From a virus, in the IMG/VR virus record IMGVR_UViG_3300008120_000277, positions 1-44,625 of that record: DNA of 44,625 bases; one strand, given 5' to 3'. Numbering within the stretch: position 1 is the first letter of the stretch; every line of letters starts with the position of its first letter. Positions 2,364 through 36,685 of the stretch are shown here, one piece after another. A program made the translations under genes and the position numbers. A model generated the notes under the pieces. It had not been told where the DNA came from. It did no database searches and worked only from the letters and a program-made list of their open reading frames with translations.

Positions 2364-3002
2364 ATGATTACGGATTCATTGCAGGGTTGGTTAGAGGTTG
2401 TTGGTGCCGCTCTGGGTGCTATTACTGCGGCTATAGGTGCTTTCATTGCGTCTAAACCAATAATAAGGTATTTCAAAAAGCGTGGAGCAGTAAAACGCGA
2501 GGAAACTTTTAATACAGTCAATATGCGTATATCTGATCTTCTTGGAGAACTTCGAATGAAGTCCAAGGGTTCTCGCGTTTCACTTACTCAGTTTCATAAT
2601 GGTGGAAAGTTTGCTGATGGGTCTTCGATGCGAAGGATGAGCATATCGCATCAATCTTGTGATCCAAAAATATCATCTACCATGCAGTTTAGGCAAGATG
2701 TTCTTGTTAGTAGATTCGTGGAAATCATACAGCAGTTGCGAGAAAACAATCCGCATATAAGAAATGTCTCTTCTTTGTTTGAGTCAAACACCAAGAAGTT
2801 CTATGAACTCCATGATACCACAGGCTTCTCGATTTTGCCGCTGTTTTGCAGCGATAGCCTCGTAGTTTATGGATACATAACAATTGAATGGTGTGATTTG
2901 CAAACTATAGACAATGTTGATGAAACGGATGTCAAGTCCCACATGGAATACACCCGAGATCAGGTGTCATTCCTTCTCAATTCAGCGAAAGACTATAGAT
3001 GA
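2364..3002 (+). CDS. Membrane-anchored protein with GAF-like domain (212 aa)
   Basis: Start chosen at the ATG because GGAG lies 7 nt upstream; a TTG four codons earlier would put that site inside the gene. Residues about 9-30 (VVGAALGAITAAIGAFIAS) form one transmembrane helix followed by a basic stretch (YFKKRGAVKR), predicting a short N-terminal segment outside and a cytoplasmic body. The soluble part has a GAF/PAS-like look: RVSLTQFHNGG at residues 71-81, a central helix, then a strand pair near FSILPLF and VVYGYITIEW. No catalytic residues are evident. It overlaps gp25 by ATGA, so it belongs to the wedge operon although a membrane protein is unexpected there. It could act in lysis timing, superinfection control or sensing; I cannot choose among them. 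Confidence 0.6.
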   Translation: MITDSLQGWLEVVGAALGAITAAIGAFIASKPIIRYFKKRGAVKREETFNTVNMRISDLLGELRMKSKGSRVSLTQFHNGGKFADGSSMRRMSISHQSCDPKISSTMQFRQDVLVSRFVEIIQQLRENNPHIRNVSSLFESNTKKFYELHDTTGFSILPLFCSDSLVVYGYITIEWCDLQTIDNVDETDVKSHMEYTRDQVSFLLNSAKDYR

Positions 3003-3394
3003 GCATCATAAGGAAAAACTTTTTCAAAGATTTGGATTTGGATTTTACTCCTCATCCAGTTACTGCTGATGTCTCTCAAAAGACGGATGCGGAGGCTGTT
3101 AAAAGAGCCATAAGAAATTTGGTTTTGATGAATCGTCATGACAAGCCTTTTCAACCATACATCGATGCACGGATAACAAGACTCCTATTTGAGCCAGCAA
3201 CCCCGATCATAGCCATGCAACTAAGGTCAAATTTGATAGACATGATCAATCGACATGAGCCAAGGGCAAAGGTTAATGATGTGATTGTTTCCTTCAACGA
3301 AAAGAAAAACTCGTTCGAAACACAGATTTCGTTCATGCTATTGAACAACAGACAGGTGTCTAGTGTGTTTGTTAGCATAGAGAGGCTAAGATAA
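2999..3394 (+). CDS. gp25: gp25 baseplate wedge protein
   Basis: gp25 is the small wedge component that joins the wedge to the hub and starts sheath assembly. This 131-aa protein matches the T4 length closely and has the typical pattern: an N-terminal DLDLDFTPHPVTAD segment, then AVKRAIRNLVLMNRHDKPFQP, then a helix with LLFEPATPIIA and a C-terminal beta hairpin region. The family is shared with type VI secretion TssE. It is coupled to the upstream membrane gene (ATGA) and lies one base before gp6, the usual order. Confidence 0.93.
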   Translation: MSIIRKNFFKDLDLDFTPHPVTADVSQKTDAEAVKRAIRNLVLMNRHDKPFQPYIDARITRLLFEPATPIIAMQLRSNLIDMINRHEPRAKVNDVIVSFNEKKNSFETQISFMLLNNRQVSSVFVSIERLR

Positions 3395-3395
3395 A

Positions 3396-5240
3396 ATGCC
3401 AAATCGTGTAGTAACAACACCAGTGACAGAATTAGACTTTTTTGCAATAAAGGAAAATCTAAAGACTTATCTCTCTGGTACATCTGAATTTTCAGATTTT
3501 GACTATGAGGGATCGGGAATAAATATTCTTCTTGATCTACTTGCCTATAATACACACTACACGGCTGTGTATGCAAATATGTTGGCAGCAGAGTCTTTCA
3601 TTGACTCAGCAGTAATGAGGCGATCACTTGTCTCACTTGGTAAAAATCTAGGATATGTCCCAAATTCAAGCACTGCTGCAACGGCTGTACTGAATCTTAC
3701 AATGGGAACTACCTCTGGAGTTCCAAATTACATCCCGATTGGAACAAAGTTTTTTTCTTCTAAGGATGGAGATAATTACACCTTTAGCACTGTTGATTCA
3801 TTCAAGGTCAACAAAGATGCTGTCCCATACAAAGTTTCCAATCTTGAGGTGAGGCAAGGTATCTATAAGACTGCATCGTATATTTACGATTCAACAATAA
3901 ACGCAATACGATTTGAGATCCCCTCTGCCAAGATAGACAAAAGTCTGATCAAGATATATGTCATGAATAGTCCAACCGATCTATCCAATATGGATGAATC
4001 GTGGAAAGTTAATGACGACTATCTTCAGTTGGACTCGACCTCTAAGGTATTTTTCATCAATGAAAACTTTAGAGGAAACTATGAGATTTCTTTCGGAGAT
4101 GGAATACTTGGTAGCAAGCCAGCGGATAAGAGTTACATAATGATAGTCTACTTTCAGACAGAGGGATCTGCTGGAAATGCAATAGGAAATTCTGATACCG
4201 ATGCTGCTTCATCATTTACTTTCAATGGTATTGGTGGAAATGATTTTGATGCAAGTGTGGACACGGTAACAGCATCATATGGTGGTGCCGAAAGAGATAC
4301 GGAAGAACAAATAAGATACACCGCTCCAAAGTACTATCAGTCTCAAGATAGGGCAGTCACCATTTCAGATTATGAAAGCATAATACTAAAGGAATACTCT
4401 GCTGCCAGTGCGGTTAGAGTTTGGGGTGGCGAGGAAAATGATCCTCCAGTTTACGGTAAGGTATTCGTATCAATACTTCCCAAGAGTGGGGAAATATTGA
4501 GCGATGCTGCCAAGGAATCAATAAAGACCAATATTCTGTCAAAGAAGAAGGTAATAGCCGTAACTCCAGAGTTGGTTGACCCAGACTACACATACATCAA
4601 AGTGAATTGTTTTGTAACATATGATTCATCCAGAACAACTCAAAGCGATATCAGAGTTGGTAGTTCTGCATCAGCAACTATAGTCAACTATTCAAATACT
4701 AGTCTTGAAAAATTCAATGGATCATTCAGATATTCTGTTCTCACAAGATTGGTTGACCTTTCTAATACGGCAATGGTGAGTAACAGGATATCAACAAAAC
4801 TTGCCAAAAAACTAATACCGCGCGAGACTCCAACATCTTTCATATTAGATTTTGGAGCAAAACTGAACCATCCATTTGATGGCAATAACACCATACTGAA
4901 CTCATCCGTGTTCAAATATAAAGACACATCAACAAATCTCTTGGTCGATTGCTTCTTAGAGGACGATGGATATGGATCTATTTCAATATACACCATAAAG
5001 GACGGATCTAAAGTAGTTTTGAAGAGTGGTATCGGATCGGTGGATTATCAAACAGGAAAAGTGAATTTGGTTAATTTCAATCCCTACAGCAGCAACAAAC
5101 TATCTTATATCGAAATATCTGTCGAGCCAGATCAAAGATTTGACATTGTACCAAAGAGAAATCAGATACTAAAAATAGACGAAAATATTTCTGGATCTAT
5201 TGTTGTTGACACGGTCGATGTGTCTCGCGGTAATATCTAA
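3396..5240 (+). CDS. gp6: gp6 baseplate wedge protein
   Basis: gp6 dimers form the inner ring of the baseplate; the family is related to P2 gpJ. The 614-aa product is slightly shorter than T4 gp6 (about 660). The N-terminal segment (DFDYEGSGINILLDLLAYNT, then AAESFIDSAVMRRSL) and the central region near residues 310-335 (KYYQSQDRAVTISDYES) are the characteristic conserved blocks. The C-terminal part is beta-rich. It directly follows gp25 and overlaps the next wedge gene by TAATG. Confidence 0.92.
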   Translation: MPNRVVTTPVTELDFFAIKENLKTYLSGTSEFSDFDYEGSGINILLDLLAYNTHYTAVYANMLAAESFIDSAVMRRSLVSLGKNLGYVPNSSTAATAVLNLTMGTTSGVPNYIPIGTKFFSSKDGDNYTFSTVDSFKVNKDAVPYKVSNLEVRQGIYKTASYIYDSTINAIRFEIPSAKIDKSLIKIYVMNSPTDLSNMDESWKVNDDYLQLDSTSKVFFINENFRGNYEISFGDGILGSKPADKSYIMIVYFQTEGSAGNAIGNSDTDAASSFTFNGIGGNDFDASVDTVTASYGGAERDTEEQIRYTAPKYYQSQDRAVTISDYESIILKEYSAASAVRVWGGEENDPPVYGKVFVSILPKSGEILSDAAKESIKTNILSKKKVIAVTPELVDPDYTYIKVNCFVTYDSSRTTQSDIRVGSSASATIVNYSNTSLEKFNGSFRYSVLTRLVDLSNTAMVSNRISTKLAKKLIPRETPTSFILDFGAKLNHPFDGNNTILNSSVFKYKDTSTNLLVDCFLEDDGYGSISIYTIKDGSKVVLKSGIGSVDYQTGKVNLVNFNPYSSNKLSYIEISVEPDQRFDIVPKRNQILKIDENISGSIVVDTVDVSRGNI

Positions 5241-7252
5241 TGGCAAATATACCCCTACTTCTCAATACTGGAACAGGAGCAGCCGCACCAGCGGCAACTC
5301 TTGCTCTTTCAGAGGAGTCTCCCCGAACTATAAAAAGATTTGGACCGAGCAATCTGATTGTTGATCAGGTTCCAGACTTTATAAACAGAGATCATGAGGG
5401 TTTCAGAAGTTTTGTTGAAGCATATTACGAGTGGATGGAAAGGAATCTAAATCCATTTGGTATCATCGATAGTTTTATGGATATGACCGATGTAGACACA
5501 ACCATCGGTTTATTTGTCCTTGATTTCAGAGAAATGTATCTAAAGAACTTTCCATTGCAGTTGGCTACAGATTCAACTGGAAATATCGTTAGTGAGGCCA
5601 ATTTTCTCAAGAATGCAAGAAACTTTTATGGAGCAAAAGGAACAGAAAAGTCTTTCAAGTTTCTTTTCAGACTGATCTACAACGCGGCATCCGAGGTTTA
5701 TTATCCTGGTAATGATGTTCTGAAGGCATCTGATGGAAGATGGATAGAAAAGTTTTCTCTGAAGACAACCAACACTGGAGGAACTGCCAATTTTCAGATG
5801 GCTGGTCATCAAGTTGTTCAGATCAATCCATTGAATGGTGATGTCATTGCATACGCAGAAGTTGCCGATGTCATTCAGTATCGCAAAGAATACTATGATA
5901 TCAACGAAATATTCATCAAGAATAAGTTTGGCACATTCTTACCGAATCTGGATGTCTATGTTGATACATCAAGTGGAAGGCTGCTGGAGCGTGTCTATCC
6001 TGTAATAAGTGGATATGAAATAGTTGATGGTGGCCTTAGATATTCCAGAAGCGATGTTGTTACAAGTTCTACATCTTACAATGGATTTGGGCTTGAGTTG
6101 GCAATAGACTCGGTGAAGGAAAACGGTAAGATCACGGGAGTACAGATAATCGATTCTGGAATTGGTTACGATCAGACACCAACAATATCAATAGCATCGA
6201 ATACAGGAAACGGACTTGCTAGAGTAAATGTCACGATTGGAGCCGTGACATCCTATCCAGGATACTTCGCCACCAACAGCGGAAAACTTAGTTCAAACAA
6301 GAAACTGTATGATGCCGACTACTATCAGGAGTTTGCATATGCTCTACGCAGCGAAGTACCATTTCTTACCTATAAAGAAATATACAAGAAGTTGGTGCAT
6401 CCTGCGGGATTCAAGATGTTCGGTGATGTTCTCATCAAGCGTGACATAGTAGATTCTCTTCCATTTCATTCCGAGATGCAGAGATATGAACTTCCTTTCA
6501 TTGGTCACTATACACCATATAGAATTGGCACAACCGCCGATCTATACAACAAGTATGTCAATGGATTCAACCCCCGAGGAAATTCATTCAGTTCATACCA
6601 AGCATACGGCCAAAGTGGTGGAAAACTACTCGTCACTCCAGTTGGTTTTACATTCAATGGCGGCGTAACATGGTCAACTATTGCGGCAAGTGGATCTAAT
6701 GGAAATCTGATATCAGCCAGTGTCTTTGAGTTTCAGCGAGTCGGTGCTACACAAGGTGCTTTCTATCTAAAGCAGATAGATTTTGACACTACATCAGCAA
6801 GCATAACTGGCGGTGGATTTGTTGAGGGTATAACATTCACCCTCATAGACAGCAATGCCACTGGTTACACGGCAACGATACAAAGAGTTCTATATGGCAT
6901 TGGCATTGTCCCCGAAACATCAGCGGGACAAACCCATGACCCGCAAGGACTTCCTCTTGGATCAAGCGGTAGTATAGAGGGATACATACAAGCACAGGGA
7001 TTCAGTTATGCTTATTGGAGAGTTTATCACCACCCGAATATCAGAGGAATAAAGGGTCTAACAGGACCATTGGGTGGTGGTACTGGACTAGGAGCATCAT
7101 TTGGATCCGTTGCATTGAACCCATTCTTCAGAATGCCGATAGGATACCACTTCCATTCAAATCCAAACAGTGGTCCATACGAAGGAACCACTGGCGATGA
7201 CAATCAGTATGGTCTGATCGAAAGCACAACTCTAACCTCACCGAACTTCTAA
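5240..7252 (+). CDS. gp7-like baseplate wedge protein, short form
   Basis: The N-terminal 150 residues contain FRSFVEAYYEWME, a helix pair, and NARNFYGAKGTEKSFKFLF followed by IYNAASEVYYP. These resemble the C-terminal part of T4 gp7 (FYSTKGIEASYKFLF, from memory), and LVHPAGFKMFG near residue 380 resembles a second gp7 block. The protein is 670 aa against about 1030 in T4, so the T4 N-terminal part is missing. The C-terminal third (about residues 440-670) is Gly/Ser/Thr-rich and looks like a beta-structured add-on. Position between gp6 and gp8 is exactly that of gp7. The assignment is by motif and synteny; another wedge-family protein is possible. Confidence 0.68.
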   Translation: MANIPLLLNTGTGAAAPAATLALSEESPRTIKRFGPSNLIVDQVPDFINRDHEGFRSFVEAYYEWMERNLNPFGIIDSFMDMTDVDTTIGLFVLDFREMYLKNFPLQLATDSTGNIVSEANFLKNARNFYGAKGTEKSFKFLFRLIYNAASEVYYPGNDVLKASDGRWIEKFSLKTTNTGGTANFQMAGHQVVQINPLNGDVIAYAEVADVIQYRKEYYDINEIFIKNKFGTFLPNLDVYVDTSSGRLLERVYPVISGYEIVDGGLRYSRSDVVTSSTSYNGFGLELAIDSVKENGKITGVQIIDSGIGYDQTPTISIASNTGNGLARVNVTIGAVTSYPGYFATNSGKLSSNKKLYDADYYQEFAYALRSEVPFLTYKEIYKKLVHPAGFKMFGDVLIKRDIVDSLPFHSEMQRYELPFIGHYTPYRIGTTADLYNKYVNGFNPRGNSFSSYQAYGQSGGKLLVTPVGFTFNGGVTWSTIAASGSNGNLISASVFEFQRVGATQGAFYLKQIDFDTTSASITGGGFVEGITFTLIDSNATGYTATIQRVLYGIGIVPETSAGQTHDPQGLPLGSSGSIEGYIQAQGFSYAYWRVYHHPNIRGIKGLTGPLGGGTGLGASFGSVALNPFFRMPIGYHFHSNPNSGPYEGTTGDDNQYGLIESTTLTSPNF

Positions 7253-7253
7253 T

Positions 7254-9614
7254 ATGGCAAACAACGCTCTCAAAACCCTACTGAAGACAGATCTTGTTCA
7301 GATGATCAAGAGTGGTCTTACAACACAAGAAAACTATTATCTTTTTGTAAGCAGAGCCACTCCATATACGGACAATGCAGAAACCACGACTGTTGTAGAG
7401 AGTGATACAGTTCCGCCATCAGTGGGTGAATCATCAAGAAATGTATACGACACATTCAGGAACATTTTGTTCATCAAGAGGATTCAACCAGACAACATGC
7501 GGATAGTGATTCCGCGTGTCAATTGGACTGCTGGTGAAGTATATGATGCGTATACCGAAACAAAAGACATGGCTGGAAAAACATACTATGTGATGACCAG
7601 TGAATACAATGTCTACAAGTGCATGTATGCCGATGGGACATCGGATATAATGCCAACGGGTAAATCGTCCGACATCATAACAACTGGTGACGGATATAAG
7701 TGGAAGTACATCTATTCTGTACCCGAAGATTATTTGGGTTTTATAACAGAAGAGTATATTCCCGTGTATCTTGCATCGGTTACAGATAAAGATCGGGTGG
7801 AGCAAAAGTTAGTTCAACAGAGGGCAAGACCAGGTTCAATAGATTCCGTTTCGATTACCGCTTCTCTAAGCCCCACATTTTCAAAGATATCTTCAGCAAA
7901 AAGATATGTGACGGAAGCATACAACTCATTCTTATCAACACAGGGAATAACTCCGAATGTGGCGGGATCGTCTTATATCGCATTTGATGCTTCACAAGAG
8001 AGCGCAACAATCGGTAGTTCTTATTGGGATGGATATGGTCTTTATGTCTCCGAAGGTGCTGGAGTGGGTCAATATTTCAGAATATTGAATTTTTATAAGA
8101 ATGGGAATGCTGGTGCGAGTTACTACTATGCGAATGTCTATCCATCTCTAACCCGCAGTCTTGAAATAGCAGAATCAGAAAACAAGTCACAATTCAAGAT
8201 AGTTCCATATGTTGTAGTCGATGGTGATGGTCAGGATGCAGTTGTTGTTCCCAATACCACCAATGCAAAGAAAGTGGTCACTATGTCTGTGATTAATCCA
8301 GGCAAGAACTACACATATGCAAGACCAAGAATAACCACAGAAAGTTCAAGTGTAACTATTGGATCTGGTGTTCAGGCTCTCAATAATTCCATTTCAACGG
8401 AACTATCAACCCCCCAAGGCCATGGTGCTGATGCCATAAAGGAATTTGGTGGATCCGATCTCATGATCATCATGGAAGTTGATGGGACAGAGGGCGGCAA
8501 GATATCAACAAGAAATGACTATAGGCAGTTTGGAATAATCAAGAATCCGTATCTTTATGGCGGTCTTACCCTTGCTGGCGTAGAAGAAGATGTGGTACTC
8601 AAGTTGCTGATAAAGAAAGAGCCTAACAAGACTTCAATATACAGAACCAGAGATGAATACAATGCTGGTACTTTTGTAGTTGGTAATTACCTTATCGGCA
8701 AAGAATCATTGGCAAATGGTCGTATTGTTGGATCAGAGAGGATTCCAGGTTCAGAATTCCATCAGGTAAATCTTGTTGATGTTGTTGGTAACTTCAGATT
8801 CTCAGATGAAGCATCGTTGAGAAGTCGCGTTTATTTTGGTCTAACATTCTCTGGGTCTTTTGTCACGGGAGACAGTGCATTCCAATATTCGGGAATCACT
8901 GGGTTGACCTTGTCTGCTTCTGGAACGGTGGTTTCGTTTGACATGAGTGAAGGAAGTGTATTGTTGAACTGTACCAATGGAGCCTTTGTAGAGGGCAAGT
9001 CAATATTCTTCACAACAGGTTCTACTCTTCCAAGTTCGTACATAATTGATGTTGATGAGGAGTTTGGAGAAAAGGTTGGGCAATTCTCGCTCGGACTGAC
9101 AAGTGGAAGTGCGTTCCTTGTGTTTGGGTCTACGGGAGGATTGAGAGATGAAAACTACGGAAGAATAGCATCTACTCAGTTGGACAGAGTGGAAATAACA
9201 GATGTAGGAGAATACAACCTGACCACACGATTGACACTCGTTACTACATCTTCGCCATTTACAGATAAAATACTTGTTTCTGGTGACGCTATAGATGGCA
9301 TTGTTTCACAGACCAATTCCACAACTTTGAAAAAGGTGACGGGAACGGTTGTTGATTTTGCCGTAACTGGTGGACTTGGCAACACTGGAACATTAAGCCT
9401 TACTGATGTAAAAGGTTCTTTCAACAGTAGTGATCCATTGTTCTATTCGGCCTACGGATCGACCGCAGAAGCCAGCATAGCCGCCAATATAAACTCTATT
9501 ACCAATTCGGATATCGAAATAGGTTCTGGAGATTTGTTATACATAGAAAATGTAAGACCAATCGTTAGAAATTACGAACAAGCCGAAGAGTTCAAGATCG
9601 TGATTGGTTTCTAG
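7254..9614 (+). CDS. gp8: gp8 baseplate wedge protein, enlarged
   Basis: gp8 is a dimeric wedge protein. The N-terminal 190 residues carry the family pattern: NYYLFVSRATPY, then MRIVIPRVNW, then TGDGYKWKYIYSVPEDY. The extreme C-terminus (LYIENVRPIVRNYEQAEEFK) closely resembles the T4 gp8 end (MENRPPI...TEEINILFTF, from memory). Between them sit several hundred extra beta-rich residues (about 370-720), making it 786 aa against 334 in T4. The extra region probably projects from the wedge. It starts two bases after the gp7-like gene. Confidence 0.85.
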   Translation: MANNALKTLLKTDLVQMIKSGLTTQENYYLFVSRATPYTDNAETTTVVESDTVPPSVGESSRNVYDTFRNILFIKRIQPDNMRIVIPRVNWTAGEVYDAYTETKDMAGKTYYVMTSEYNVYKCMYADGTSDIMPTGKSSDIITTGDGYKWKYIYSVPEDYLGFITEEYIPVYLASVTDKDRVEQKLVQQRARPGSIDSVSITASLSPTFSKISSAKRYVTEAYNSFLSTQGITPNVAGSSYIAFDASQESATIGSSYWDGYGLYVSEGAGVGQYFRILNFYKNGNAGASYYYANVYPSLTRSLEIAESENKSQFKIVPYVVVDGDGQDAVVVPNTTNAKKVVTMSVINPGKNYTYARPRITTESSSVTIGSGVQALNNSISTELSTPQGHGADAIKEFGGSDLMIIMEVDGTEGGKISTRNDYRQFGIIKNPYLYGGLTLAGVEEDVVLKLLIKKEPNKTSIYRTRDEYNAGTFVVGNYLIGKESLANGRIVGSERIPGSEFHQVNLVDVVGNFRFSDEASLRSRVYFGLTFSGSFVTGDSAFQYSGITGLTLSASGTVVSFDMSEGSVLLNCTNGAFVEGKSIFFTTGSTLPSSYIIDVDEEFGEKVGQFSLGLTSGSAFLVFGSTGGLRDENYGRIASTQLDRVEITDVGEYNLTTRLTLVTTSSPFTDKILVSGDAIDGIVSQTNSTTLKKVTGTVVDFAVTGGLGNTGTLSLTDVKGSFNSSDPLFYSAYGSTAEASIAANINSITNSDIEIGSGDLLYIENVRPIVRNYEQAEEFKIVIGF

Positions 9615-22252: not shown

Positions 22253-24193
22253 ATGCCATATAGACTAGTAACATTTGATTCGCTAGGTAAAATGATTGCG
22301 GTGAACCCAAAGTCCTTTCAGGACAATGAGGTTCCGACTTTTACTTATGTTGCCAACAACCCAGCCGTTTATTCTTTCATTTCTGAAGATTTGTTGCCAA
22401 AGGGAGAATACCTTGCCAATCTTGAATTGGGTGTGAATGCCTTCAGTGATTTTGAGTTGAATGGCTCATATATCAGGCCGCTCAACAGGGGCAGTGATCA
22501 AAACGCATTGTATGATCCTCGTTCAGAAATAATACTGAAGACTGACAATCCATCTCCATATGTCAGTTTTGCCACCGCAGTTAAGCAAGACATCACCAAG
22601 ACACAGGTGACATACAATCAACTTGACGAAACAACCAAGCCCGTGCATTCGTCAATACAAAAGAAGTTTGGTCCAACATCAGGTAAGTTTACACGAAGTC
22701 TTTCTGGACTTACAGGTGGCAGCATTTATGTGACCAACATCGTCAAGCGTTCCGATCTGATAAACACTGCTCCGCACAACAGGATAGGAAAAGGAAACAC
22801 GGGAACCGCATACTCAAGTTATGGGTTTGAAATGTTCTTCTATCCAACATCCCTATCAAACAATTTTACATTGATGCAGAAAGGGCTTACTGGTGCATCT
22901 GCAAGTTGGAAACTGGGATATGACAGCGGTGCTGGATTCCTACAGTTTGCATGGATGGGAAAAAGCACAACTGGTGGATATAATCTATCACAGAATATCG
23001 TAAATACTGCTGGTATAAGCCTGAACAACTGGAACCATGTTGCAGTTTCCTTGATTAGAGAAGGAACAACTGGTATAACTTATACTATAAAGGGATATTT
23101 CAACTCAACTCAGAGGTTCAGCACGACAGGAACCGCAAGCACAATACCAGAAGACACGGATACTGGCGGAATTTACATCGGAAATAATCATCTAGGTTCA
23201 GACTCATATACGGGATACATCGACTCGTTAAGAGTATTTGACACCGATGTTACTGGTGGACTACTAACTGCATATGGATTCTATGGAAATACTCTAGGTG
23301 TTCCGACTCTTACTGGATTCACCACAAGTTCAGAAATATGTTTTGTGATGAACTTCAATGGTCTTGAAGATGTTGATTCGTTCTATGCAGAGAGTCAGGA
23401 CAGAATGATCGGGGTGGTCACTAGAATATCTGATCTAGTGCTTGGGCCTTCTGGTGCGCCAGTCACAGCAACAGTTGCTGATGTCGGCATTCGCGACATC
23501 TACAGGTATCAATATGGAATAAGCGGTGCTACTGGATATACAGATGACACTGGTTTCTCTATGGGATATGGTCCTCTTGTTTTCCCTTATGCAACAACAC
23601 CAGGATCAACTGTACATGGTTATGATTATGTGTTTGATATTTACTCAGTTACTGATCTCGGTGTTACTCTAGAAACATTCAGATCCAACTACCGCTACAA
23701 TGCCATGTATGAAGCAATGATCGAATCATTCTACTTCATTGAAGGAGCATCTGGAAACAAAGGATCCTCTGGTAATGTGTCCAAGTCATCACTAGGAACC
23801 AATCCATTTGGACGCTTGTTTGGTTCATGCGGTGGAAACTACTATGGAATATCGTTCAATCATAGTGCATTGTTCTTGAATCCTCTCGACACCGAAACTT
23901 TGTCTTTCATTTTGAGGAATGGTGAACTTGCTGGACTTGGTATATGCCGTTCATCATATTCTTTTACTGATGGTCTTAACTTCAATAGAACATTGAATGC
24001 ACAACAGATATACAATCTTAGACTTGATCTGTTGGATTACTTCAACAAACTTGTTCAGAGTAAACTTGATTCTGTTTCTTCTATAAATTCAGCAACAACC
24101 AAGAAGAGTGTTTCTACAGGCAAGGGAGCCAAGGCAACAGGCAGTCCATATGAATCGCGTGGAAATGAGGATGCCATTCTTTCGGAAATATAA
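22253..24193 (+). CDS. Structural/adhesin protein with LamG-like (concanavalin A-like) domain
   Basis: Residues about 185-335 match the LamG/Laminin_G_3 layout: GFEMFFYPTS, FTLMQKG, NNWNHVAVSLIREG, GIYIGNNHLGSDSYTGYIDS then LRVFD. This fold typically binds carbohydrate or surface proteins. The N-terminal 150 residues (LVTFDSLGKMIAVNPKSF...) look like a virion attachment part. The C-terminal region includes a helical stretch (AQQIYNLRLDLLDYFNKLVQ) and a polar Lys/Ser-rich end. The ribosome site is AAGGAAGAG. It closes the fibre cassette before the neck genes, so it may be a whisker or side adhesin. Confidence 0.7.
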   Translation: MPYRLVTFDSLGKMIAVNPKSFQDNEVPTFTYVANNPAVYSFISEDLLPKGEYLANLELGVNAFSDFELNGSYIRPLNRGSDQNALYDPRSEIILKTDNPSPYVSFATAVKQDITKTQVTYNQLDETTKPVHSSIQKKFGPTSGKFTRSLSGLTGGSIYVTNIVKRSDLINTAPHNRIGKGNTGTAYSSYGFEMFFYPTSLSNNFTLMQKGLTGASASWKLGYDSGAGFLQFAWMGKSTTGGYNLSQNIVNTAGISLNNWNHVAVSLIREGTTGITYTIKGYFNSTQRFSTTGTASTIPEDTDTGGIYIGNNHLGSDSYTGYIDSLRVFDTDVTGGLLTAYGFYGNTLGVPTLTGFTTSSEICFVMNFNGLEDVDSFYAESQDRMIGVVTRISDLVLGPSGAPVTATVADVGIRDIYRYQYGISGATGYTDDTGFSMGYGPLVFPYATTPGSTVHGYDYVFDIYSVTDLGVTLETFRSNYRYNAMYEAMIESFYFIEGASGNKGSSGNVSKSSLGTNPFGRLFGSCGGNYYGISFNHSALFLNPLDTETLSFILRNGELAGLGICRSSYSFTDGLNFNRTLNAQQIYNLRLDLLDYFNKLVQSKLDSVSSINSATTKKSVSTGKGAKATGSPYESRGNEDAILSEI

Positions 24194-26115: not shown

Positions 26116-26777
26116 TGTTTCGATACTTCTACCATGGTAGTATAAGAAAACTTGTAGTGGCTTTTGGCTCGCTATTCAACGAGATATACATCTCCCGCAA
26201 AGACTCTGCTGGAACTGAACTGAAGAAAATCAAAGTCCCGATATCATATGGACCAAAAGAAAAGTTTGTCCGAAAGATTAAGGAACTTGATGAGGCTGAT
26301 CCAGCCAGAAGCAGTTTTGAAAATATATTGCCACGAATGTCGTTTGAGATATCATCGATGGTATACGACACAAATAGAAAATTGAATAGTCTTAACAAGG
26401 TTTATTCTGCCAGAGACGAAACAGACGGAACAATCTCATATGCTTATAGCGAGGTTCCATACAACATTGAGTTTACTCTCAATATAATGAATCGTAACAT
26501 AGATGATGGATATCAGATCATAGAACAGATACTGCCATACTTCACACCAGACTTCACTATCAGCATGAATTTCACAGAACTAGATAGAAGAGTTGATGTG
26601 CCAGTTATACTGTCATCAGTCAATACAGTTGAGGATTATGAGGGTGATCTAAATGATAGAAGACTCATAACGCATTCTTTGATTTTTCAAACCAAGTCAT
26701 ACATCTTCGGACCAATCAGACAGTCTGGACTCATTAGAGAAATCGACCTTACATTCAGAGAACTAACGGACGAATAA
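26115..26777 (+). CDS. gp15: gp15 tail completion and sheath stabiliser
   Basis: gp15 forms a ring at the top of the tail that stabilises the sheath and joins the head. The start MFRYFYHGSIRKL resembles T4 MFGYFYNSSFRRY (from memory), followed by LFNEIYISRK, KVPISYGPKEKFV, ILPRMSFEI, and GYQIIEQILPYFTPDF, all in the family order. It is 220 aa against 272 in T4; the Pro-rich T4 C-terminus is missing. It overlaps the next gene at TAATG. Confidence 0.9.
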   Translation: MFRYFYHGSIRKLVVAFGSLFNEIYISRKDSAGTELKKIKVPISYGPKEKFVRKIKELDEADPARSSFENILPRMSFEISSMVYDTNRKLNSLNKVYSARDETDGTISYAYSEVPYNIEFTLNIMNRNIDDGYQIIEQILPYFTPDFTISMNFTELDRRVDVPVILSSVNTVEDYEGDLNDRRLITHSLIFQTKSYIFGPIRQSGLIREIDLTFRELTDE

Positions 26778-29236
26778 TGCCATCAACAGCAGAGAGAAAC
26801 CTAGACGGATTCCTTGATCAGTACCGCATCATAACTGTGGCTACTGAGTCTGCTGATTTGACAACGGCTAATACAATCAAAAAAATTCGCATCACGGTCG
26901 AGCAGAAAGAAATAACTCCAGTAATATTCTTTAGTAGAGATGTTATTCCATATCTTGCACCAACTGAAGATGTAACAATCTTTGCTCAAGGAATATCGGC
27001 AGCGGATGACGGATTGACATATGAGTACGCCAGATTTACCGCTGGTGTAACGCAGATGCTATCATTGAAACACAAGATGGTCTATGACATGGATCAACTT
27101 GAGAGTTCGGAGTATGGAATTATCACAGGAACCAACTCCTATGGCGCATTCAACTCTCTGCAAGATAACACGAACATACTTCTACAATATCCTCAGTTCT
27201 ATAGCATAACTGGTGCAAATCAGCCCTATGGTGTCACAGCATTTACTGGAGTTACTCTTAAAGGTGCATCGGCAGGAACCTATACACTTGTGAACTTCGG
27301 CGGTGTAATAACACCATTTCAGTTAATGTTCAGTCCCTCTATTCTTGGATTGACCCACACAAATAACCTACCAACAGGAACATTAGACTCACCTCTATAT
27401 TTTGGATTGTCTGCAAGCAATGGTATAACACAATCAGTGAAATCCATGTATTTCACGCCTGATATTTTCTTCTCAACAAGAAGAAATCTTGCAATACTGT
27501 TGGATAGAGGAATTACATTCTCTGGCATATTGACTTCATTTGAGCCTCACTATCAGTTCATCAAATATTCTGACAATGACTATACGGATACAGCAACTAA
27601 TATTATTTCTCAGTATGCAGGAAACTCTGCAAATCCTGGGTGGAATGTTGAATTAGTTCGTTCCTCTGGTAAAACTGGTTCGTACATCAATCTTGATGGC
27701 TTCAATCTTGCCAAGAGTTTCAATGAAAGATTCTTCTCTGAAGTGAAGACTTATCCGAGAAGATATAGAACAACGGCAACTGATCTTAATACTGGTCAGT
27801 ACAACTATCCATACACTACATCCGTGTTTGGCTGGTCGGCAAAAATACCAACGCCAGGAACAGCGACCGATGCCACGGGACCATATGCAAGCGTTGGTGC
27901 ATCGTTTTATCTCAACAGGATAGCGGGTGTTACTTTCTACCCACCACCATCAACATACAACTATCTTGGATCAACTGGTGCGACATCATTCGGTGGTTCT
28001 GGTGGTTCTTCGGGCTGGAACTCTTACCACAAGTCTCTCACAGGAAACTCATCTTTCTATCCCGAATATTTTATGCTTGGTGGTTCTACAACTGCTGCCT
28101 CAAACACATATGAAGCATCAAAACTTGTTCCAGCAAATATTCTAAAGTTGTTTACAGACAACAATGGTCCTAGAGGTCCACTTGGAACAACGATGAATTT
28201 CCTTGATTCATACTACTATGACATCTATGCAGAACAGTTGCAATATGGTGGTTATAAGGATATGAATTTCTTTGCCATGGATTTTAATCCCCGCTTCAAT
28301 CCATATATTCCAATGCAGTTGAAGGGTTCTTATCAGAATAGCATAACAAGAAATCACACTTCAAGAAGAGATTGCACCATTCACCAAGACTTTGGTGGTA
28401 ATACCGCTGAAAGACTGTATAACCTTAAGGAGTCGATGAAGGCAAGTATTCATTCAGCATTGAAGATGTGGAAACTCCTCCTTGATGAGCGCGGCAAGTT
28501 CAACTACAGAATCATGCCCGTTCTCTCTGGTAGAAATGAAGATTATGATCTTACTCGCGGCGGGTCAGTCCCCTATAGACCAGAAGATTTTGTTGAATAC
28601 TTAGTAAAACCACTGTTCAATAGTGTTGTTCCAGCAAATGGATTCATCATGAAGAACGATGTTGATAATTTACTATATCAAGGTTTCTATCTTGGAAATA
28701 TTGCAAGAGGGAGCGATGAGTATACAAAAGTTGTGACTAATCGCGGTATATCTGGTTCTGATCCGATCACAGCATTCATTCGTGGATTGGAGACATATTT
28801 CTTTAATCTACAGCAACTGCAATTTCAGATGACATTTTCAGAACAACTTTTTGATTTTGGGCTTACTGCTGCTGAAGCAGATCACTCTAACTATCTAAAC
28901 ACATTTAGATCTGGTAGATTTAGTGATTATAGAGTATTTGAATCAAACACTGGTCTGACGGGTGGTAATACAAAGATACCCTATGGTTTCAATGGTGAAT
29001 TTCTGTGGTATGCGGTTCCTCTAAATGAAGAATCAATACTTTATAAAAACACAAATCTACGAGATAGATGGCAGACAACAACAAACAACAATATAAATGT
29101 TGCATATTCAATAATGAGAGATGCATATTTCGAACTAACAAAGGAGCAGTTAGTCGCTGCGTCTGAATATTTCTCAGATAATAAGATAACTACTCTAGCG
29201 GAGTATAGATCTACGGATCAGTTCGTAGGAAGGTGA
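26777..29236 (+). CDS. Unknown large virion protein (819 aa) between gp15 and gp16
   Basis: Not recognised. The first 110 residues are mixed alpha/beta (YRIITVATESADLTT, KIRITVEQKEITPVIFFSRD). Residues about 130-470 are Gly/Thr/Ser/Tyr-rich and beta-type, similar in composition to the fibre proteins. Residues about 480-800 are more helical and charged (RLYNLKESMKASIHSALKMW, TYFFNLQQLQFQMTFSEQLF). It overlaps gp15 at TAATG and ends seven bases before gp16. In T4 gp15 and gp16 are adjacent. A neck, collar or whisker protein is a reasonable guess from position; no motif proves it. Confidence 0.6.
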   Translation: MPSTAERNLDGFLDQYRIITVATESADLTTANTIKKIRITVEQKEITPVIFFSRDVIPYLAPTEDVTIFAQGISAADDGLTYEYARFTAGVTQMLSLKHKMVYDMDQLESSEYGIITGTNSYGAFNSLQDNTNILLQYPQFYSITGANQPYGVTAFTGVTLKGASAGTYTLVNFGGVITPFQLMFSPSILGLTHTNNLPTGTLDSPLYFGLSASNGITQSVKSMYFTPDIFFSTRRNLAILLDRGITFSGILTSFEPHYQFIKYSDNDYTDTATNIISQYAGNSANPGWNVELVRSSGKTGSYINLDGFNLAKSFNERFFSEVKTYPRRYRTTATDLNTGQYNYPYTTSVFGWSAKIPTPGTATDATGPYASVGASFYLNRIAGVTFYPPPSTYNYLGSTGATSFGGSGGSSGWNSYHKSLTGNSSFYPEYFMLGGSTTAASNTYEASKLVPANILKLFTDNNGPRGPLGTTMNFLDSYYYDIYAEQLQYGGYKDMNFFAMDFNPRFNPYIPMQLKGSYQNSITRNHTSRRDCTIHQDFGGNTAERLYNLKESMKASIHSALKMWKLLLDERGKFNYRIMPVLSGRNEDYDLTRGGSVPYRPEDFVEYLVKPLFNSVVPANGFIMKNDVDNLLYQGFYLGNIARGSDEYTKVVTNRGISGSDPITAFIRGLETYFFNLQQLQFQMTFSEQLFDFGLTAAEADHSNYLNTFRSGRFSDYRVFESNTGLTGGNTKIPYGFNGEFLWYAVPLNEESILYKNTNLRDRWQTTTNNNINVAYSIMRDAYFELTKEQLVAASEYFSDNKITTLAEYRSTDQFVGR

Positions 29237-31421: not shown

Positions 31422-33329
31422 ATGAGCAGAATACCTGTACAACTTAGCCCTGGTGTGAATTATTCGGAAATTGATCTTACGACGATTGTTCCAAATGTGG
31501 CAACTGCCACTGGTGCCATCGCGGGAGTCTTTCAATGGGGTCCAGCAGAAAAAATAGTAACCGTAACTTCAGAAGACGATCTAGTCCGTATCTTTGGAAA
31601 GCCCTTAAGGGATGAAAACGGAATAGATTTTCACTGTGCAGCAAACTTCCTTCAGTATGGTCGTGACCTTCGGATTGTTCGTGCTGTTGGATCTGATGAA
31701 ACAAATGCAAACTCCTCTGGCTTTACGGGCTTGCAGTATGTAAATGAGGATGTTCTTGGTGGTGAGGCCGCATCTGGTCTAACTGCTTCCTTCTATGCTC
31801 GTTATCCTGGTGTTTTGGGAAATTCACTCAAAGTCGTGGTTCTAGACGGCAATGGTGAGGCTTCTGTTGTGGTTGGAGCAACAGCAACAATCGGAACAAA
31901 TACCATCAGATTCTCAACAGTTCTTGGCGGAACTCTTGAAGAAAATGACAAGTTGATCTATCAGACAAATCAGTTCTCTCAGACATTCCTTGTCGATTCG
32001 GCAGCGGGAAACACGGTCACAACAAAGACATATGTTGCAAGCGTCATCGGTCTAAGTGCGGATGTCAAGTTCCGCAGTAAGTATGCCGATCTATTCCAAC
32101 TCACAGCCGAAACAAGCACACAAGCCTCCGCAAAGGGTGGCTCTAATGACGAACTCAATGTCGTAGTCATTGACGAAGATGGTCTATTCACGGGAACCAA
32201 GGGTACGATTCTTGAGACATTCCAAAATGTCTCCAAGGCATATGATGCTCGGGACAATGACGGCGCACCAAACTATGTTTCGTCGGTGATCAACTCACAG
32301 TCGAACTACATTTGGGCTGGTAATCTTGAGACACTTTGGGGAGCATCTGTTCCACAAGATCTTACAACCACATTCTCTGATATCAGCGGTGGATATGCTG
32401 CTGCCAAGGTTTCTCGCTATAGCCTTAGCGGAGGCACTGGTGCTGCTTCATCGACAGCAAATATCTACACTAAGGGATACAGCAAGTTCATCGACCGAGA
32501 CAATGTTGATATTTCTCTTCTTATCTCTGGTCGATCTGATGCAACCACAGTAAAGTTGCTATCTGATCTTGTAAATGAACGCAAGGATTGCGTGTTGTTT
32601 GTGTCTCCACTTCTTACAGATGTTCTAAACAAGACACAATCAGTCGCAACAAATAACATTCTTACCACAAGAAACACAACATACGGAATCAATTCCTCCT
32701 ATGTCGTGATGGATAGCGGTTGGAAATATATCTACGACAAGTACAATGACATGTTCCGCTATGTTCCGCTCAATGCTGACATTGCTGGTATTTGCGCCCG
32801 TGCAGAGTTTGCAACACAATCTTGGTTTTCTCCAGCGGGTCTAAACAGAGGAACAGTCAAGAATGTCATCAAGTTGGCATTCAATCCAGACCAAGCAGCA
32901 AGAGATCTTCTCTATGTCGCAAATGTAAATCCAGTTGCTACATTCAGCGGAGAGGGAACCATCCTCTTTGGCGACAAGACCATGTTGAAGAAGCCAAGTG
33001 CATTTGACCGCATCAATGTCAGGCGGCTTTTCATCACCCTTGAAAAAGCAATCTCCACAGCCGCTAAATACTCATTGTTCGAATTCAATGATGAGTTTAC
33101 TCGCTCACAGTTCAGGAACCTTACCATTCCATATCTCCGTAATGTTCAGGCACAAAGAGGTATCACCGACTTCAGAGTGATTTGTGATGAAACCAATAAC
33201 ACTGGAGAAGTCATCGACCGCAATCAGTTCGTGGCAGACATTTACATTAAGCCAGCGCGGTCTATCAACTTCATTCAGTTGAACTTCATTGCAACAAGAA
33301 CAGATAGCACCTTTACTGAGATCATCTAA
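31422..33329 (+). CDS. gp18: gp18 tail sheath protein, copy 1
   Basis: Contractile sheath subunit, 635 aa, close to T4 (659). N-terminal QLSPGVNYSEIDLTTIVP and FQWGPAE, a middle domain, then the conserved C-terminal domain: FDRINVRRLFITLEKAI, FEFNDEFTRSQFRNLTIPYL, GEVIDRNQFVADIYIKPA and INFIQLNFIATRT. The last block is the arm that links neighbouring subunits. The segment between SLKVVVLDG (135-143) and GGSNDE (239-244) is only 95 residues. The ribosome site is GGGAG. A paralogous sheath gene follows 11 bases later. Confidence 0.95.
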   Translation: MSRIPVQLSPGVNYSEIDLTTIVPNVATATGAIAGVFQWGPAEKIVTVTSEDDLVRIFGKPLRDENGIDFHCAANFLQYGRDLRIVRAVGSDETNANSSGFTGLQYVNEDVLGGEAASGLTASFYARYPGVLGNSLKVVVLDGNGEASVVVGATATIGTNTIRFSTVLGGTLEENDKLIYQTNQFSQTFLVDSAAGNTVTTKTYVASVIGLSADVKFRSKYADLFQLTAETSTQASAKGGSNDELNVVVIDEDGLFTGTKGTILETFQNVSKAYDARDNDGAPNYVSSVINSQSNYIWAGNLETLWGASVPQDLTTTFSDISGGYAAAKVSRYSLSGGTGAASSTANIYTKGYSKFIDRDNVDISLLISGRSDATTVKLLSDLVNERKDCVLFVSPLLTDVLNKTQSVATNNILTTRNTTYGINSSYVVMDSGWKYIYDKYNDMFRYVPLNADIAGICARAEFATQSWFSPAGLNRGTVKNVIKLAFNPDQAARDLLYVANVNPVATFSGEGTILFGDKTMLKKPSAFDRINVRRLFITLEKAISTAAKYSLFEFNDEFTRSQFRNLTIPYLRNVQAQRGITDFRVICDETNNTGEVIDRNQFVADIYIKPARSINFIQLNFIATRTDSTFTEII

Positions 33330-33340
33330 CAGGAGAGAAA

Positions 33341-36091
33341 ATGGCTAGTCCAATCCCAACACAACTAAGCCCAGGCGTTAAAGTTTCGGAGATCGATCTT
33401 TCTCAGTTCATTCAGCCAGAGTCTCTCAACAGTGCTGGTATGGTGGGAACATTCAATTGGGGTCCATGTTTGATTGCAAATCGAGTCACATCGGAAAGCA
33501 ATCTTGCTGCCCTTTATGGAAAGCCAACCCTTGATCCTTCTGATGTTGACAGTGAGGCAGATTTCTTTGCGGGTGCAAATTTCCTTCGTTATTCAAATAA
33601 TCTAAAGGCCATTAGAATCCTTCAGAGTGGGGATAAGAACTCTACCTCTAAGGAAGCGGGAATAACAAGTATTGCAAACTGTACTCATGGTAGCATCAAG
33701 AATGAGGCAGAGTTTGCACTATTGGGAGGATTTTCTGGACAAGATGGCATCGAATCCATTGCACACTTCCGCGGTAGATATCCAGGAAACTTTGGAGACT
33801 CACTTAAGGTCATTGTTTGGGATGGTGCTACAAGTGAAAATGGTATAATAAACACAACAACCACGGCATACACAGATTATACATTGTTTGGCGGATACGC
33901 ACTAGCAACAATGGCTGGTATAAGCACGGGTACTATCGGATATACATTTGAGGTAAAAAGAAATCCTTTTACTATTGGGCTTGATATGCCTGATGTTGAT
34001 GGTCTTGTTTCTTTGGGATTTACAAGTGGATCGCATCAATACACTCTTGTCACGGTTGTCCCGCCAACGAGTCAAACTACAGCACAGTTTATAGATTCTC
34101 TATCAAACGCAGAAGGAATCAAGTTCTTCTATGCAACAGGAACAACTTCAAGCAATCTTTCTTTGACTAGTTCTGGTAGCATTCCCGATGGAAATAATGG
34201 AAATTATTATGTTCTTGAGGATGCAACAGCAACCATAGGCAAAGCGTTCAATCCATTCAATACATTCAACCCATCAACGAATCCTTCGAAAAATATATTC
34301 GCAAAAGTAAATTCTGTAAATAGTGCGGCTGTTGATCTGTTATTCTTGAATGCAGATTCAACAAATATGAACTCTGGATTTGCAAATCCATCAGCAACCG
34401 CAAAAGCACCAAATCCAGCCGCGTTCAAGAACTTCCAAACATCTGGTATTCCATCAAACTTTGGTTCTTTGATCTATACAGGAACAGATAGCACAAATCT
34501 ATTTGTTACCTACAGATCCACATGGTCAACTATAGCCTCCAAGATATTCAACACAGTATCGGGGACTCCATCTACTTCTATAAAGGGTTGGAATCTTCTT
34601 GTTGGGTTGACTGGTGGAATCACATTTGTTCAGACAGTCAGTGGAACTCAACAAGCAATAGGTCTTACCTTTGATACAGTTGGTGGTCTTACTGGTATCC
34701 AAAGAGACTTTGCATTCGGTATGAAGCAGTTTGGAAAGACATCAGTTGTAAACTCACAGACAACATCAACTGTTGCAGATTTTACATCATCAACCGCGAT
34801 CTTTGATAAGATACCAAATACATCAGAATTCGCTCTTAGTGTTGGTGGTTCAAATGATGAAGTAAGTTTTGCAGTTATTGATACGGGTGGAAAGTTTGGT
34901 CCAAAGAATGGACTTCTTGAAAGATTCCAACTTCTATCAAAGGCAAAGGATGCAAAGAATCTTGATGGTGAGTCAATCTACTATAAAGACTACATCAATA
35001 ATAACTCTAAATTTGTTTACTGTACCAAGCCGTTTGGTTTGAGTGGTGGTGGCAATGCATCATCGGATGCAACCACCGCATTCGGTGAAATCTTCTATTC
35101 TTATGTTGATGTACCTGGTGGCACAACCTACACAAGGAAGGGATTCTATGAATCCCAACTTTATTTTGGTGAATCAAGCGCATCAACTCCAACAATCGCT
35201 GAGTATAGCAATGCATATTCAATCTTTGCTGATGATGATTCGGCAGTTGATATTATCTTTGTACCAGAATCATCAGTTGCAACTGATACATCAAGCGCAG
35301 CAACAACAGTAGAATCTATCGTCTATGATACGGTGATTGAACCACGCAAGGATACCATCCTTGTCATTCCAACACCAAAGCCAGCAAGCACAACTCAACA
35401 TTCTGCACAAGCAACAGCAAATGCCATTGGATTCAGGAAGACCAATCTAACAGTTCCTTCCAACTCGTACACAATGCTTGTTGCTGGTAGAAAGATCTAC
35501 TTTGATACATTCAATAATCAGTTGCGTAGAATGTCTCTATCATCAGATCTTGCTGGAATACTCTCCGCACAAGAGATTCCTTGGGAATCGCCAGCGGGAT
35601 TTGCAAGAGGAATCATCCGCAATGCCATCAAGTTGGAGACAAACTTCTCCAAGCCTGATCGCGACGAACTTTATAAGAACGGAATTAACTTCTTCGTTCA
35701 GTTCAATGATGGATCTGGTACAGCATTGTTCGGTGACAAGACTCTTCTAACCAAACCAAGTGCCTTTGATCGCATCAATGTCCGCAGAGTGTTCATCTCT
35801 CTTGAGAAGGCCATTTCTAAGGCGGCTAAGTTCTCATTGTTCGAATTCAATGACGAGTTCACCCGTTCTCAGTTCCGCAATCTAGTAATCCCATTCCTCT
35901 CAAGTGTACAATCACAAAGGGGTATTGCAGATTTCAAGGTTGTTTGCGACAACACAAACAATACTGCTGAAGTGATTGATAAGAATCAGTTCGTTGCAGA
36001 CATCTATATCAAGCCATTGAAGTCCATCAACTTCATTCAGTTGAACTTCATTGCAGTGAGAAGCGACTTTAACCTCACCACCATCGAATAA
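33341..36091 (+). CDS. gp18: gp18 tail sheath protein, copy 2 (large insertion)
   Basis: A second sheath paralogue of 916 aa. Its N-terminal QLSPGVKVSEIDLSQFIQP and C-terminal domain (FDRINVRRVFISLEKAI, FEFNDEFTRSQFRNLVIPFL, AEVIDKNQFVADIYIKPL, INFIQLNFIAVRS) align with copy 1 almost residue for residue. Between SLKVIVWDG (154-162) and GGSNDE (502-507) there are 339 residues instead of 95, an extra 244 or so, rich in Gly, Ser, Thr and Asn and probably displayed on the outside of the sheath. The ribosome site is CAGGAGAG, stronger than that of copy 1. Both copies look intact. They may be mixed in one sheath or used as alternatives. Confidence 0.93.
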   Translation: MASPIPTQLSPGVKVSEIDLSQFIQPESLNSAGMVGTFNWGPCLIANRVTSESNLAALYGKPTLDPSDVDSEADFFAGANFLRYSNNLKAIRILQSGDKNSTSKEAGITSIANCTHGSIKNEAEFALLGGFSGQDGIESIAHFRGRYPGNFGDSLKVIVWDGATSENGIINTTTTAYTDYTLFGGYALATMAGISTGTIGYTFEVKRNPFTIGLDMPDVDGLVSLGFTSGSHQYTLVTVVPPTSQTTAQFIDSLSNAEGIKFFYATGTTSSNLSLTSSGSIPDGNNGNYYVLEDATATIGKAFNPFNTFNPSTNPSKNIFAKVNSVNSAAVDLLFLNADSTNMNSGFANPSATAKAPNPAAFKNFQTSGIPSNFGSLIYTGTDSTNLFVTYRSTWSTIASKIFNTVSGTPSTSIKGWNLLVGLTGGITFVQTVSGTQQAIGLTFDTVGGLTGIQRDFAFGMKQFGKTSVVNSQTTSTVADFTSSTAIFDKIPNTSEFALSVGGSNDEVSFAVIDTGGKFGPKNGLLERFQLLSKAKDAKNLDGESIYYKDYINNNSKFVYCTKPFGLSGGGNASSDATTAFGEIFYSYVDVPGGTTYTRKGFYESQLYFGESSASTPTIAEYSNAYSIFADDDSAVDIIFVPESSVATDTSSAATTVESIVYDTVIEPRKDTILVIPTPKPASTTQHSAQATANAIGFRKTNLTVPSNSYTMLVAGRKIYFDTFNNQLRRMSLSSDLAGILSAQEIPWESPAGFARGIIRNAIKLETNFSKPDRDELYKNGINFFVQFNDGSGTALFGDKTLLTKPSAFDRINVRRVFISLEKAISKAAKFSLFEFNDEFTRSQFRNLVIPFLSSVQSQRGIADFKVVCDNTNNTAEVIDKNQFVADIYIKPLKSINFIQLNFIAVRSDFNLTTIE

Positions 36092-36115: not shown

Positions 36116-36685
36116 ATGAACATCAAGAACTTTGCCAATGCAATGCAGGGAGCGGGAGTCAAGCCTTCTCTCTTCGAAGTTCAGGGTAGAATCGGTGGAA
36201 CGGAAAGCCCACTCACTCCGTTCCTTGTCAAGTCCGCATCATTGCCAGGTACTGCGTTAGGAACCATCGAAATTCCATTCCGTGGAAGAAGAATCAAGGT
36301 ACCTGGCGACCGCGTCTTCGGTGATTGGACAATCACACTCATCAATGATAATAAGTTCCAACTTCGTAATCTTTTTGAACTTTGGGTCAACAGCATTCAG
36401 TCGATGCAGACAAATGTTGCTACCAACGAGTTCATCAACTTCGCTGGTCCAGTCTTCACAGATTGGACTGTAAATCAGTTGGATCGTGCAGGAAAGCCAA
36501 TCAAGGCATATACTTTGGTTGGATGCTTCCCAACTGACATCTCTCCAATCGATCTTTCATATGAAGCAACAGATCAGATTGAAGAGTTCAGCGTCACTCT
36601 TGCATACTCTTACTTCACATCTAATGTCGGAACGCCAGACGCACAACCGCTACCTGGCTTGAACAACTTCACCCCAGGTGGTTAA
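36116..36685 (+). CDS. gp19: gp19 tail tube protein
   Basis: Inner tube subunit inside the sheath. 189 aa against 163 in T4. Family blocks: IKNFANAMQGAGVKPSLFEV, LVKSASLPGTALGTIEIPF followed by RGRRIKVPGDR, then DWTITLINDN and a C-terminal beta region with GCFPTDISPIDLSYEATDQI and EFSVTLAYSYF. It lies between sheath and portal as in T4, behind its own late-promoter-like site and a GGGAG ribosome site. Confidence 0.95.
   Translation: MNIKNFANAMQGAGVKPSLFEVQGRIGGTESPLTPFLVKSASLPGTALGTIEIPFRGRRIKVPGDRVFGDWTITLINDNKFQLRNLFELWVNSIQSMQTNVATNEFINFAGPVFTDWTVNQLDRAGKPIKAYTLVGCFPTDISPIDLSYEATDQIEEFSVTLAYSYFTSNVGTPDAQPLPGLNNFTPGG

Follow-up and report, generated by a model that had tools for sequence, protein, structure and literature searches.

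Two intact gp18-type tail sheath genes, referred to here as S1 and S2, lie 11 nt apart in an uncultured T4-like phage, and the pair recurs across the whole of its clade, beyond chance. Tandem or multiple sheath genes are already known, and the new element is the inequality of the pair: one sheath is constant, and the other carries an exchangeable outer domain. With confidence that is about even, we favor a two-component contractile sheath in which S1, the conserved subunit, would act as the motor, and S2 would co-assemble with it to provide a variable display.

Gene organization

The stretch of DNA analyzed (the window) is an IMG/VR sequence of 44,625 bases and corresponds to the structural region of a T4-like phage. 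It holds baseplate and fibre-like genes, neck genes, gp15, the small and large terminase genes, S1, S2, the tail tube and portal genes, prohead genes, the major capsid gene, a gp19-like gene in the gp3 place, and uvsY. Listed in Table 1 are the features of the sheath region. S1 and S2 are positioned between the large terminase and tail tube genes, and the same order is observed in HTVC008M, DLP6, and T4.

Table 1. Features of the sheath region, numbered by position in the window.
Feature	Coordinates	Strand	Evidence
S1, conventional gp18-type tail sheath, 635 aa	31422..33329	+	Pfam, PHROG, model, dN/dS
S1-S2 spacer, 11 nt, likely S2 ribosome-binding site	33330..33340	+	
S2, second gp18-type sheath, 916 aa, enlarged domain I	33341..36091	+	PF17482, PHROG 23, model
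S2 SLKV-GGSNDE interval, 344 residues, mostly expanded domain I	33812..34843	+	
S2 C-terminal domain, well kept across S2 alleles	35747..36091	+	
30-nt S1 run common to S2 at 36026-36055	33264..33293	+	
Tail tube gp19, directly downstream of S2	36116..36685	+	

No doubling of the tube alongside the sheath was seen, the three PHROG 45 matches in the two-sheath relative G001 having counterparts in the single-sheath contigs G002 and G003. An extra tube to go with the second sheath was considered and rejected on this ground. The gp19-like gene at position 42101 occupies the position of the HTVC008M tail completion protein. The gene at 22253-24193 (+ strand), which lies between the fibre-like and neck genes, encodes a concanavalin A-like lectin domain (PF13385). 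A psbA-type gene was found in none of the five records searched, some of which are fragments.

Positioned between gp15 and the small terminase gene, at 26777-29236 (+ strand), is an orphan gene of 819 amino acids with no match in Pfam, PHROG, the PDB, or phage records. It is found in nine of the ten sequences of the two-sheath clade that hold this stretch (several are near-duplicates, and the exception is L022) and in G004, and is missing from all 42 single-sheath sequences. It may go with the second sheath.

S1 and S2 as sheath proteins

The original prediction was of two full-length gp18 paralogues 11 bases apart, and indeed both open reading frames lie on the same strand and match sheath families. 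S1 matches PF04984 with 49.1 bits (cut-off 31.4), PF17482 with 67.2 bits (cut-off 26.9), PF22671, and PHROG 23 at 1e-121. S2 matches PF17482 with 60.1 bits (cut-off 26.9) and PHROG 23 at 9.5e-84, and its score against PF04984, 31.2 bits, falls narrowly below the cut-off of 31.4. By profile search, both proteins contain the sheath core and the C-terminal sheath domain. The two are 44% identical over S1 residues 150-634, with a further N-terminal match at 37%.

The AlphaFold2 model of S1 (pLDDT 80.0, pTM 0.72) aligns with the T4-type sheath 9f4a_SA with a Z score of 37.0 and an rmsd of 3.3 over 479 residues. That of S2 (pLDDT 77.6, pTM 0.56) displays the gp18 fold, aligning with 9ev2_S1 (VIA-align) with a Z score of 29.4 and an rmsd of 3.6 over 480 residues. 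The best structure matches of both models are T4-type sheaths, and the alignment of the S2 model with the PVC and AFP sheaths spans about 300-320 residues.

The C-terminal domains had been described as aligning almost residue by residue. Their likeness is real (75%), but it is family-wide: S1 is 72% identical there to the sheaths of single-sheath phages, and the closeness of S1 and S2 in this region is thus ordinary and does not point to a duplication in the recent past. The DNA run that ends in gaattcaatga is shared between 33071 and 35833 and measures 21 nt rather than the reported 20; a longer shared run of 30 nt begins at 33264 and 36026.

Distribution of the pair

A scan of IMG/VR contigs with S2 provided 42 loci, 34 of them with an S2 orthologue. 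The corresponding scan with S1 gave at least 600 candidates, of which the best 80 were kept, and it added one S2 contig (L051) as well as L053, which is cut inside S1. Among the total of 35 S2 contigs, all 29 that reach far enough upstream have S1, or the end of S1, before S2, and six of these (L004-L007, L012, and L035) are near-identical to the window. The other six (L010, L017, L030, L032, L033, and L034) start within S2 or too near it for a preceding open reading frame of 100 amino acids. G001, a relative of 156.6 kb, has two sheath genes. S1 and S2 are two full-length sheath paralogues in one genome, as in phage PaBG.

Outside the clade, a single sheath reading frame is present in all 79 loci examined among the best 80 of at least 600 S1 candidates; these are four phage isolates and 75 contigs, with L053 left out, and both terminase and tube are visible in 70. 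The eight distant loci from the S2 scan likewise have one sheath reading frame each, as do the 157- and 164-kb contigs G002 and G003, searched whole. In two of the single-sheath relatives (L040 at 6474-7520 and L042 at 2900-3979), two adjoining tail-tube-like genes follow the sheath. S1 matched one place each in the first 60 listed of 2,604 phage records, and in a spread of 60 of the 2,606 records matching S2, two places were found in three, namely CPt10 and two Erwinia jumbo phages. The comparison of related genomes for one versus two gp18 copies thus reveals a pair that is clade-wide and one reading frame in more distant loci. The premise that phages of this type normally have one sheath gene holds for the relatives outside the clade, over the stretches fetched and the whole of G002 and G003, but is too broad, given that T4-like Campylobacter phages carry several gp18 genes, two of them adjacent.

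Origin of the second copy

In trees of 72 and 53 sequences, S1 forms one clade and S2 forms one clade (support 100), so the pair is older than the divergence of the members seen. The first tree included 35 of the 80 single-sheath sequences (28 taken at random) and six named outgroups; for the second, seven long or distant sequences were dropped, and S1 and S2 were thinned from 16 to 9 and from 15 to 10, respectively. L012 and L007, in which S2 is broken, were left out of the trees and the pair comparisons. In the first tree, the S2 stem measures 1.19 changes per column versus 0.51 for S1, and the two join with L052 at a support of 91. A test of S1 and S2 as one clade was neutral (p-AU 0.46), and the second copy may have come from duplication within the lineage or from acquisition.

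It was also proposed that the shared 3' DNA permits recombination between the copies. As a recent, wholesale process this is not borne out, since the synonymous sites of the S1 and S2 C-termini are saturated (pS 0.81). The identity of S1 to S2 in the 10 within-genome pairs, minus that in the 262 between-genome pairs, lies between -1.3 and +0.2 points in each of four regions and is +1.9 points at the C-terminus (77.1 versus 75.2), in a table that includes L012 and L007 and whose S2 C-terminal figures are slightly lowered thereby. The 30-nt run of the window is longer than any in 300 synonymous shuffles (largest, 27), and the longest run common to S1 and S2 has a mean length of 24.9 nt within genomes versus 18.1 nt between them. 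Shared codons are slightly more common within genomes at the C-terminus (55.6% versus 53.3%, p 0.048), with an excess also in residues 522-560 (p 0.004) and at the N-terminus (p 0.009), and not significantly so in the other four of the seven blocks tested. These are weak signs of a possible short, local exchange between S1 and S2, for which a common codon usage is an alternative cause. Recent wholesale conversion finds no support in shared-run length, codon identity within and between genomes, or synonymous divergence, which allow for slight and local exchange at most.

The enlarged domain I

The segment between the SLKV and GGSNDE motifs is 100 residues long in S1 and 344 in S2. The lengths first reported, 95 and 339, were each too short, and the difference of 244 residues stands. 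Domain I of T4 gp18 (residues 98-188) aligns to residues 109-202 of S1 and 122-448 of S2. As had been supposed, the extra residues would face outward: the alignment places them in domain I, which is the outward domain in T4 (PMC3004832). In the description of the T4 protein available there, domain I protrudes, takes no part in gp18-gp18 contacts, and serves as a binding site for the baseplate and for the long fibres when retracted (PMC3004832). Added domains are proposed to help stability or adsorption in a review of sheath proteins, which also notes that some phages encode two copies (PMC9230969).

By one alignment count, domain I comprises 101 residues in S1, 345 in S2, and 311 in the single sheath of Synechococcus phage S-8S55; the smallest and largest values among the single sheaths aligned are 25 and 311 residues. 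On this count, S2 is not alone in having a large domain I. The insert regions gave no Pfam match at E values up to 1 in any of the four tested, including window positions 33803-34831, and a tblastn search of 50,697 phage records with this same stretch gave no match at the same E-value limit. The fold searches were run with the whole model, and the insert by itself may have a known fold.

Selection and conservation of lattice positions

The median dN/dS values are 0.071 for S1 and 0.207 for S2, both of them rough given that most pairs are saturated at synonymous sites; they derive from 11 genomes (three of 14 pairs having been left out as near-duplicates), with 19 of 55 comparisons usable for S1 and 16 of 55 for S2. 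Within S2, the values are 0.134 for the N-terminus, 0.15 for the residues aligned to S1 240-521, and 0.066 for the C-terminus, and the fastest part, with a median of 0.445, is the insert region (aligned to S1 143-239). The C-terminal domain of S1 has a value of 0.055. These ratios indicate purifying selection on both genes, so that S2 is no relic, and relaxed selection on one copy, named in the original prediction as a possible outcome, was not found.

The same values bear on the reading of S2 as an artefact of assembly or as a recent duplicate in decay. L007 and L012, two contigs that otherwise differ little from the window, are without 100 and 103 bases of S2, and in L034 S2 is split into two reading frames. 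The gaps in L007 and L012 lie at different places and are probably an effect of assembly, or possibly real variants. L004, L005, L006, and L035, however, match the window without difference over the stretch that they hold, the pair recurs in diverged contigs, S2 is under purifying selection, and the identity of S1 to S2 is only 44%. As a general explanation, artefact or decay is already contradicted by this recurrence and selection, and we regard it as exceedingly improbable.

The conserved sheath columns kept by S2 are 69 of 77 in domain IV-C, 17 of 17 in domain II-C, and 15 of 15 in domain III-N. By a like-for-like count of domain III-C columns conserved in single-sheath sequences, 13 of 37 are altered in S2 versus one of 37 in S1, and many of those altered in S2 fall within T4 residues 451-471. 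In domain IV-C, 13 of 80 columns are altered in S2 versus eight of 80 in S1, and three of the 11 conserved positions of the N-terminal arm are altered in S2. Given the changes in domain III-C, S2 may not be interchangeable with S1, and together with those in domain IV-C they suggest that S2 may occupy a special position in the lattice.

Two rivals to the mixed sheath draw on these columns. S2 might re-use the sheath fold outside the lattice as a virion or non-virion protein, for example as a detached decoration or a decoy, in keeping with its long stem and its altered domain III-C columns. The C-terminal domain of S2 is constrained about as strongly as that of S1, though, as expected of a lattice subunit, and such a re-use seems quite improbable. 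The main rival holds that S2 forms only a terminal layer, as a baseplate or neck adaptor, with S1 forming the rest of the sheath. The changed domain III-C and N-terminal arm positions would fit contact with different neighbours, the baseplate is a binding partner of domain I in T4 (PMC3004832), and PVC and AFP offer an analogy, each with more than one sheath protein (PMC8894135). This terminal role we consider rather unlikely in view of the codon usage and the allele exchange described below.

Expression signals

The spacers between S1 and S2 are 9-11 nt long in all 14 pairs, and all contain GGAGA. Relative to gp23, the codon usage values are 0.528 for S1 and 0.513 for S2, those of three baseplate wedge genes are 0.406-0.413, and that of gp15 is 0.372. 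Given the single gene run, the short spacer, and the similar codon usage, both proteins are likely made in quantity. The S1-like codon usage of S2, unlike that of a few-copy protein, stands as a weak point against a terminal-ring role.

A search of the window for a separate late promoter with TATAAATA, the T4 late promoter motif, gave zero matches. The shorter ATAAATA gave five matches versus 6.86 expected, and the only one in S1, S2, or the spacer is that at 36088, at the S2 stop and before the tube gene. These signals also bear on alternative sheaths, whereby each virion would be built mainly from one subunit and one genome would yield two kinds of particle. Each gene does have its own ribosome-binding-site-like sequence, but with the tight 9-11 nt spacer and no T4 late-promoter match between the genes, separate control has left no sign, and we consider this arrangement improbable.

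Variation and exchange of S2 alleles

Across the tube and portal genes, the DNA of contigs L013 and L029 is 99-100% identical, and in S2 it is 97-100% identical from codon 779 on; over S2 codons ~29-695 the identity is 46-66%, and in mid-S1 it is 80-91%. At the protein level, S1 is 94.5% and S2 59.8% identical, with S2 C-termini at 99%. For L014 and L029, synonymous difference rises and falls likewise at the codon level. This rise and fall suggests that the S2 segment was exchanged by recombination and did not only diverge.

Among the 59 two-sheath pairs with portals at least 96% identical, S2 falls below 65% in 24 (lowest, 59.5%) with C-termini at 96% or more, the last 110 S2 columns are 96-100% identical across all 59, and S1 is at least 91.5% identical in the 29 pairs with both copies complete. 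These pairs are not independent: three allele types account for most of the contrasts, and contig ends truncate some of the portals. Single-sheath phages likewise vary in domain I: in 38 of their pairs with tubes at least 88% identical, sheath identity is 75.9-100%. The control for close pairs is thin, in that only three single-sheath pairs reach a portal identity of 96%, with sheaths at least 90.5% identical. In a comparison of the window with G005, the ten of ten genes at 3396-24487 (baseplate, fibre-like, and unknown) are 41-67% identical and S2 73%; the values for S1, gp15, and the large terminase are 88, 92, and 94%.

Exchange of S2 alleles between phages appears, from these patterns, to be more strongly supported than exchange between S1 and S2. 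An adaptor confined to a terminal ring would not be expected to swap highly divergent alleles beside neighbours that are 99-100% alike in DNA, and the mixed sheath is favored over it.

Comparison with known multi-sheath systems

The T4-like Campylobacter phages CP220, CPt10, and IBB_35 (Firehammervirus) carry several gp18 genes, two of them adjacent, as are S1 and S2, and protein sequencing or mass spectrometry detected several gp18 types in their mature virions. In CP220, which has multiple gp18 genes, at least two types occur in the mature virion, and the sequenced virion bands include both CPT_0052 and CPT_0053, consecutive by number (PMC2853527). IBB_35 has three gp18 and three gp19 genes whose products were detected in virions (PMC3322345). 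In CPt10, the counterparts of CPT_0052 and CPT_0053 are adjacent by annotation. The adjoining genes at L134 5391-8747 are both annotated as tail sheath there, and the first carries notes of Ig-like repeats. In this first gene (538 amino acids, PHROG 20545), Pfam shows no sheath domain at E values up to 0.1, and BLASTP detects no similarity to the neighbouring gene, whereas S1 and S2 are both complete sheath genes with clear similarity; PHROG 20545 does, however, match S1 and S2 over their first ~100 residues. The Campylobacter phages also have a third gp18 elsewhere and multiplied tube genes, whereas the tube of the two-sheath clade is not multiplied and S2, unlike a partner lacking the C-terminal sheath domain, has PF17482.

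Two sheath paralogues are also found in jumbo phage PaBG and the 'Lupandier' group. Those of PaBG are 38% identical, both appear in the table of virion protein bands, and were ascribed to gene duplication (PMC7412058). Judged by their numbering, PaBG gp76 and gp213 are widely separated; they are similar in size (57.9 and 58.5 kDa), and belong to another phage lineage, and the available text describes no enlarged, variable copy such as S2 (PMC7412058).

More than one sheath protein per machine is further reported for PVC and AFP (PMC8894135) and for BIS architecture 1 (PMC7394362). These have several sheath proteins, in parallel to the two sheath genes of the S1/S2 clade, but are not phages. 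Pvc2, Pvc3, Afp2, and Afp3 are separate sequences in the PDB. The sheath paralogues of PVC and AFP have layer roles.

T4 gp18 and the single, large sheaths of S-8S55, S-WAM1, and phiM9 share the T4-type fold and domain order; for S-WAM1 and phiM9, the comparison consists of structure matches. In T4 and S-8S55, one gene does both jobs, and the stretches seen hold no second copy. Among the open-licence PMC papers listed, none dealt with this clade or with a second sheath that is variable.

Implications

In the favored mixed sheath, a second gp18 would have become fixed beside the first before the radiation of an uncultured T4-like clade. S1 would have stayed the conserved sheath subunit, and S2 would have kept the core and C-terminal arm for joining the same six-start helix, with an outward domain I about 240 residues larger and variable. 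We infer that S2 is present in virions: produced from the same gene run, S1 and S2 would co-assemble, and some or all rings of the tail would thus display variable outer domains. Such domains would most likely contact sugars of the host surface, or the fibres or baseplate touched by domain I in T4.

More tentatively, and as a possibility we hold with less than even confidence, the sheath may have been split into a conserved motor, S1, and a display, S2. Phages would exchange the outward domain of the latter much as they do a receptor-binding gene, and the whole tail would offer along its length a surface for adhesion or shielding that can be changed. Should S2 be in the sheath, the pair would be a natural case of the separation of motor and display in a contractile machine, and it would offer a direct test of the role of outer sheath domains, which is hard where one protein must also contract.
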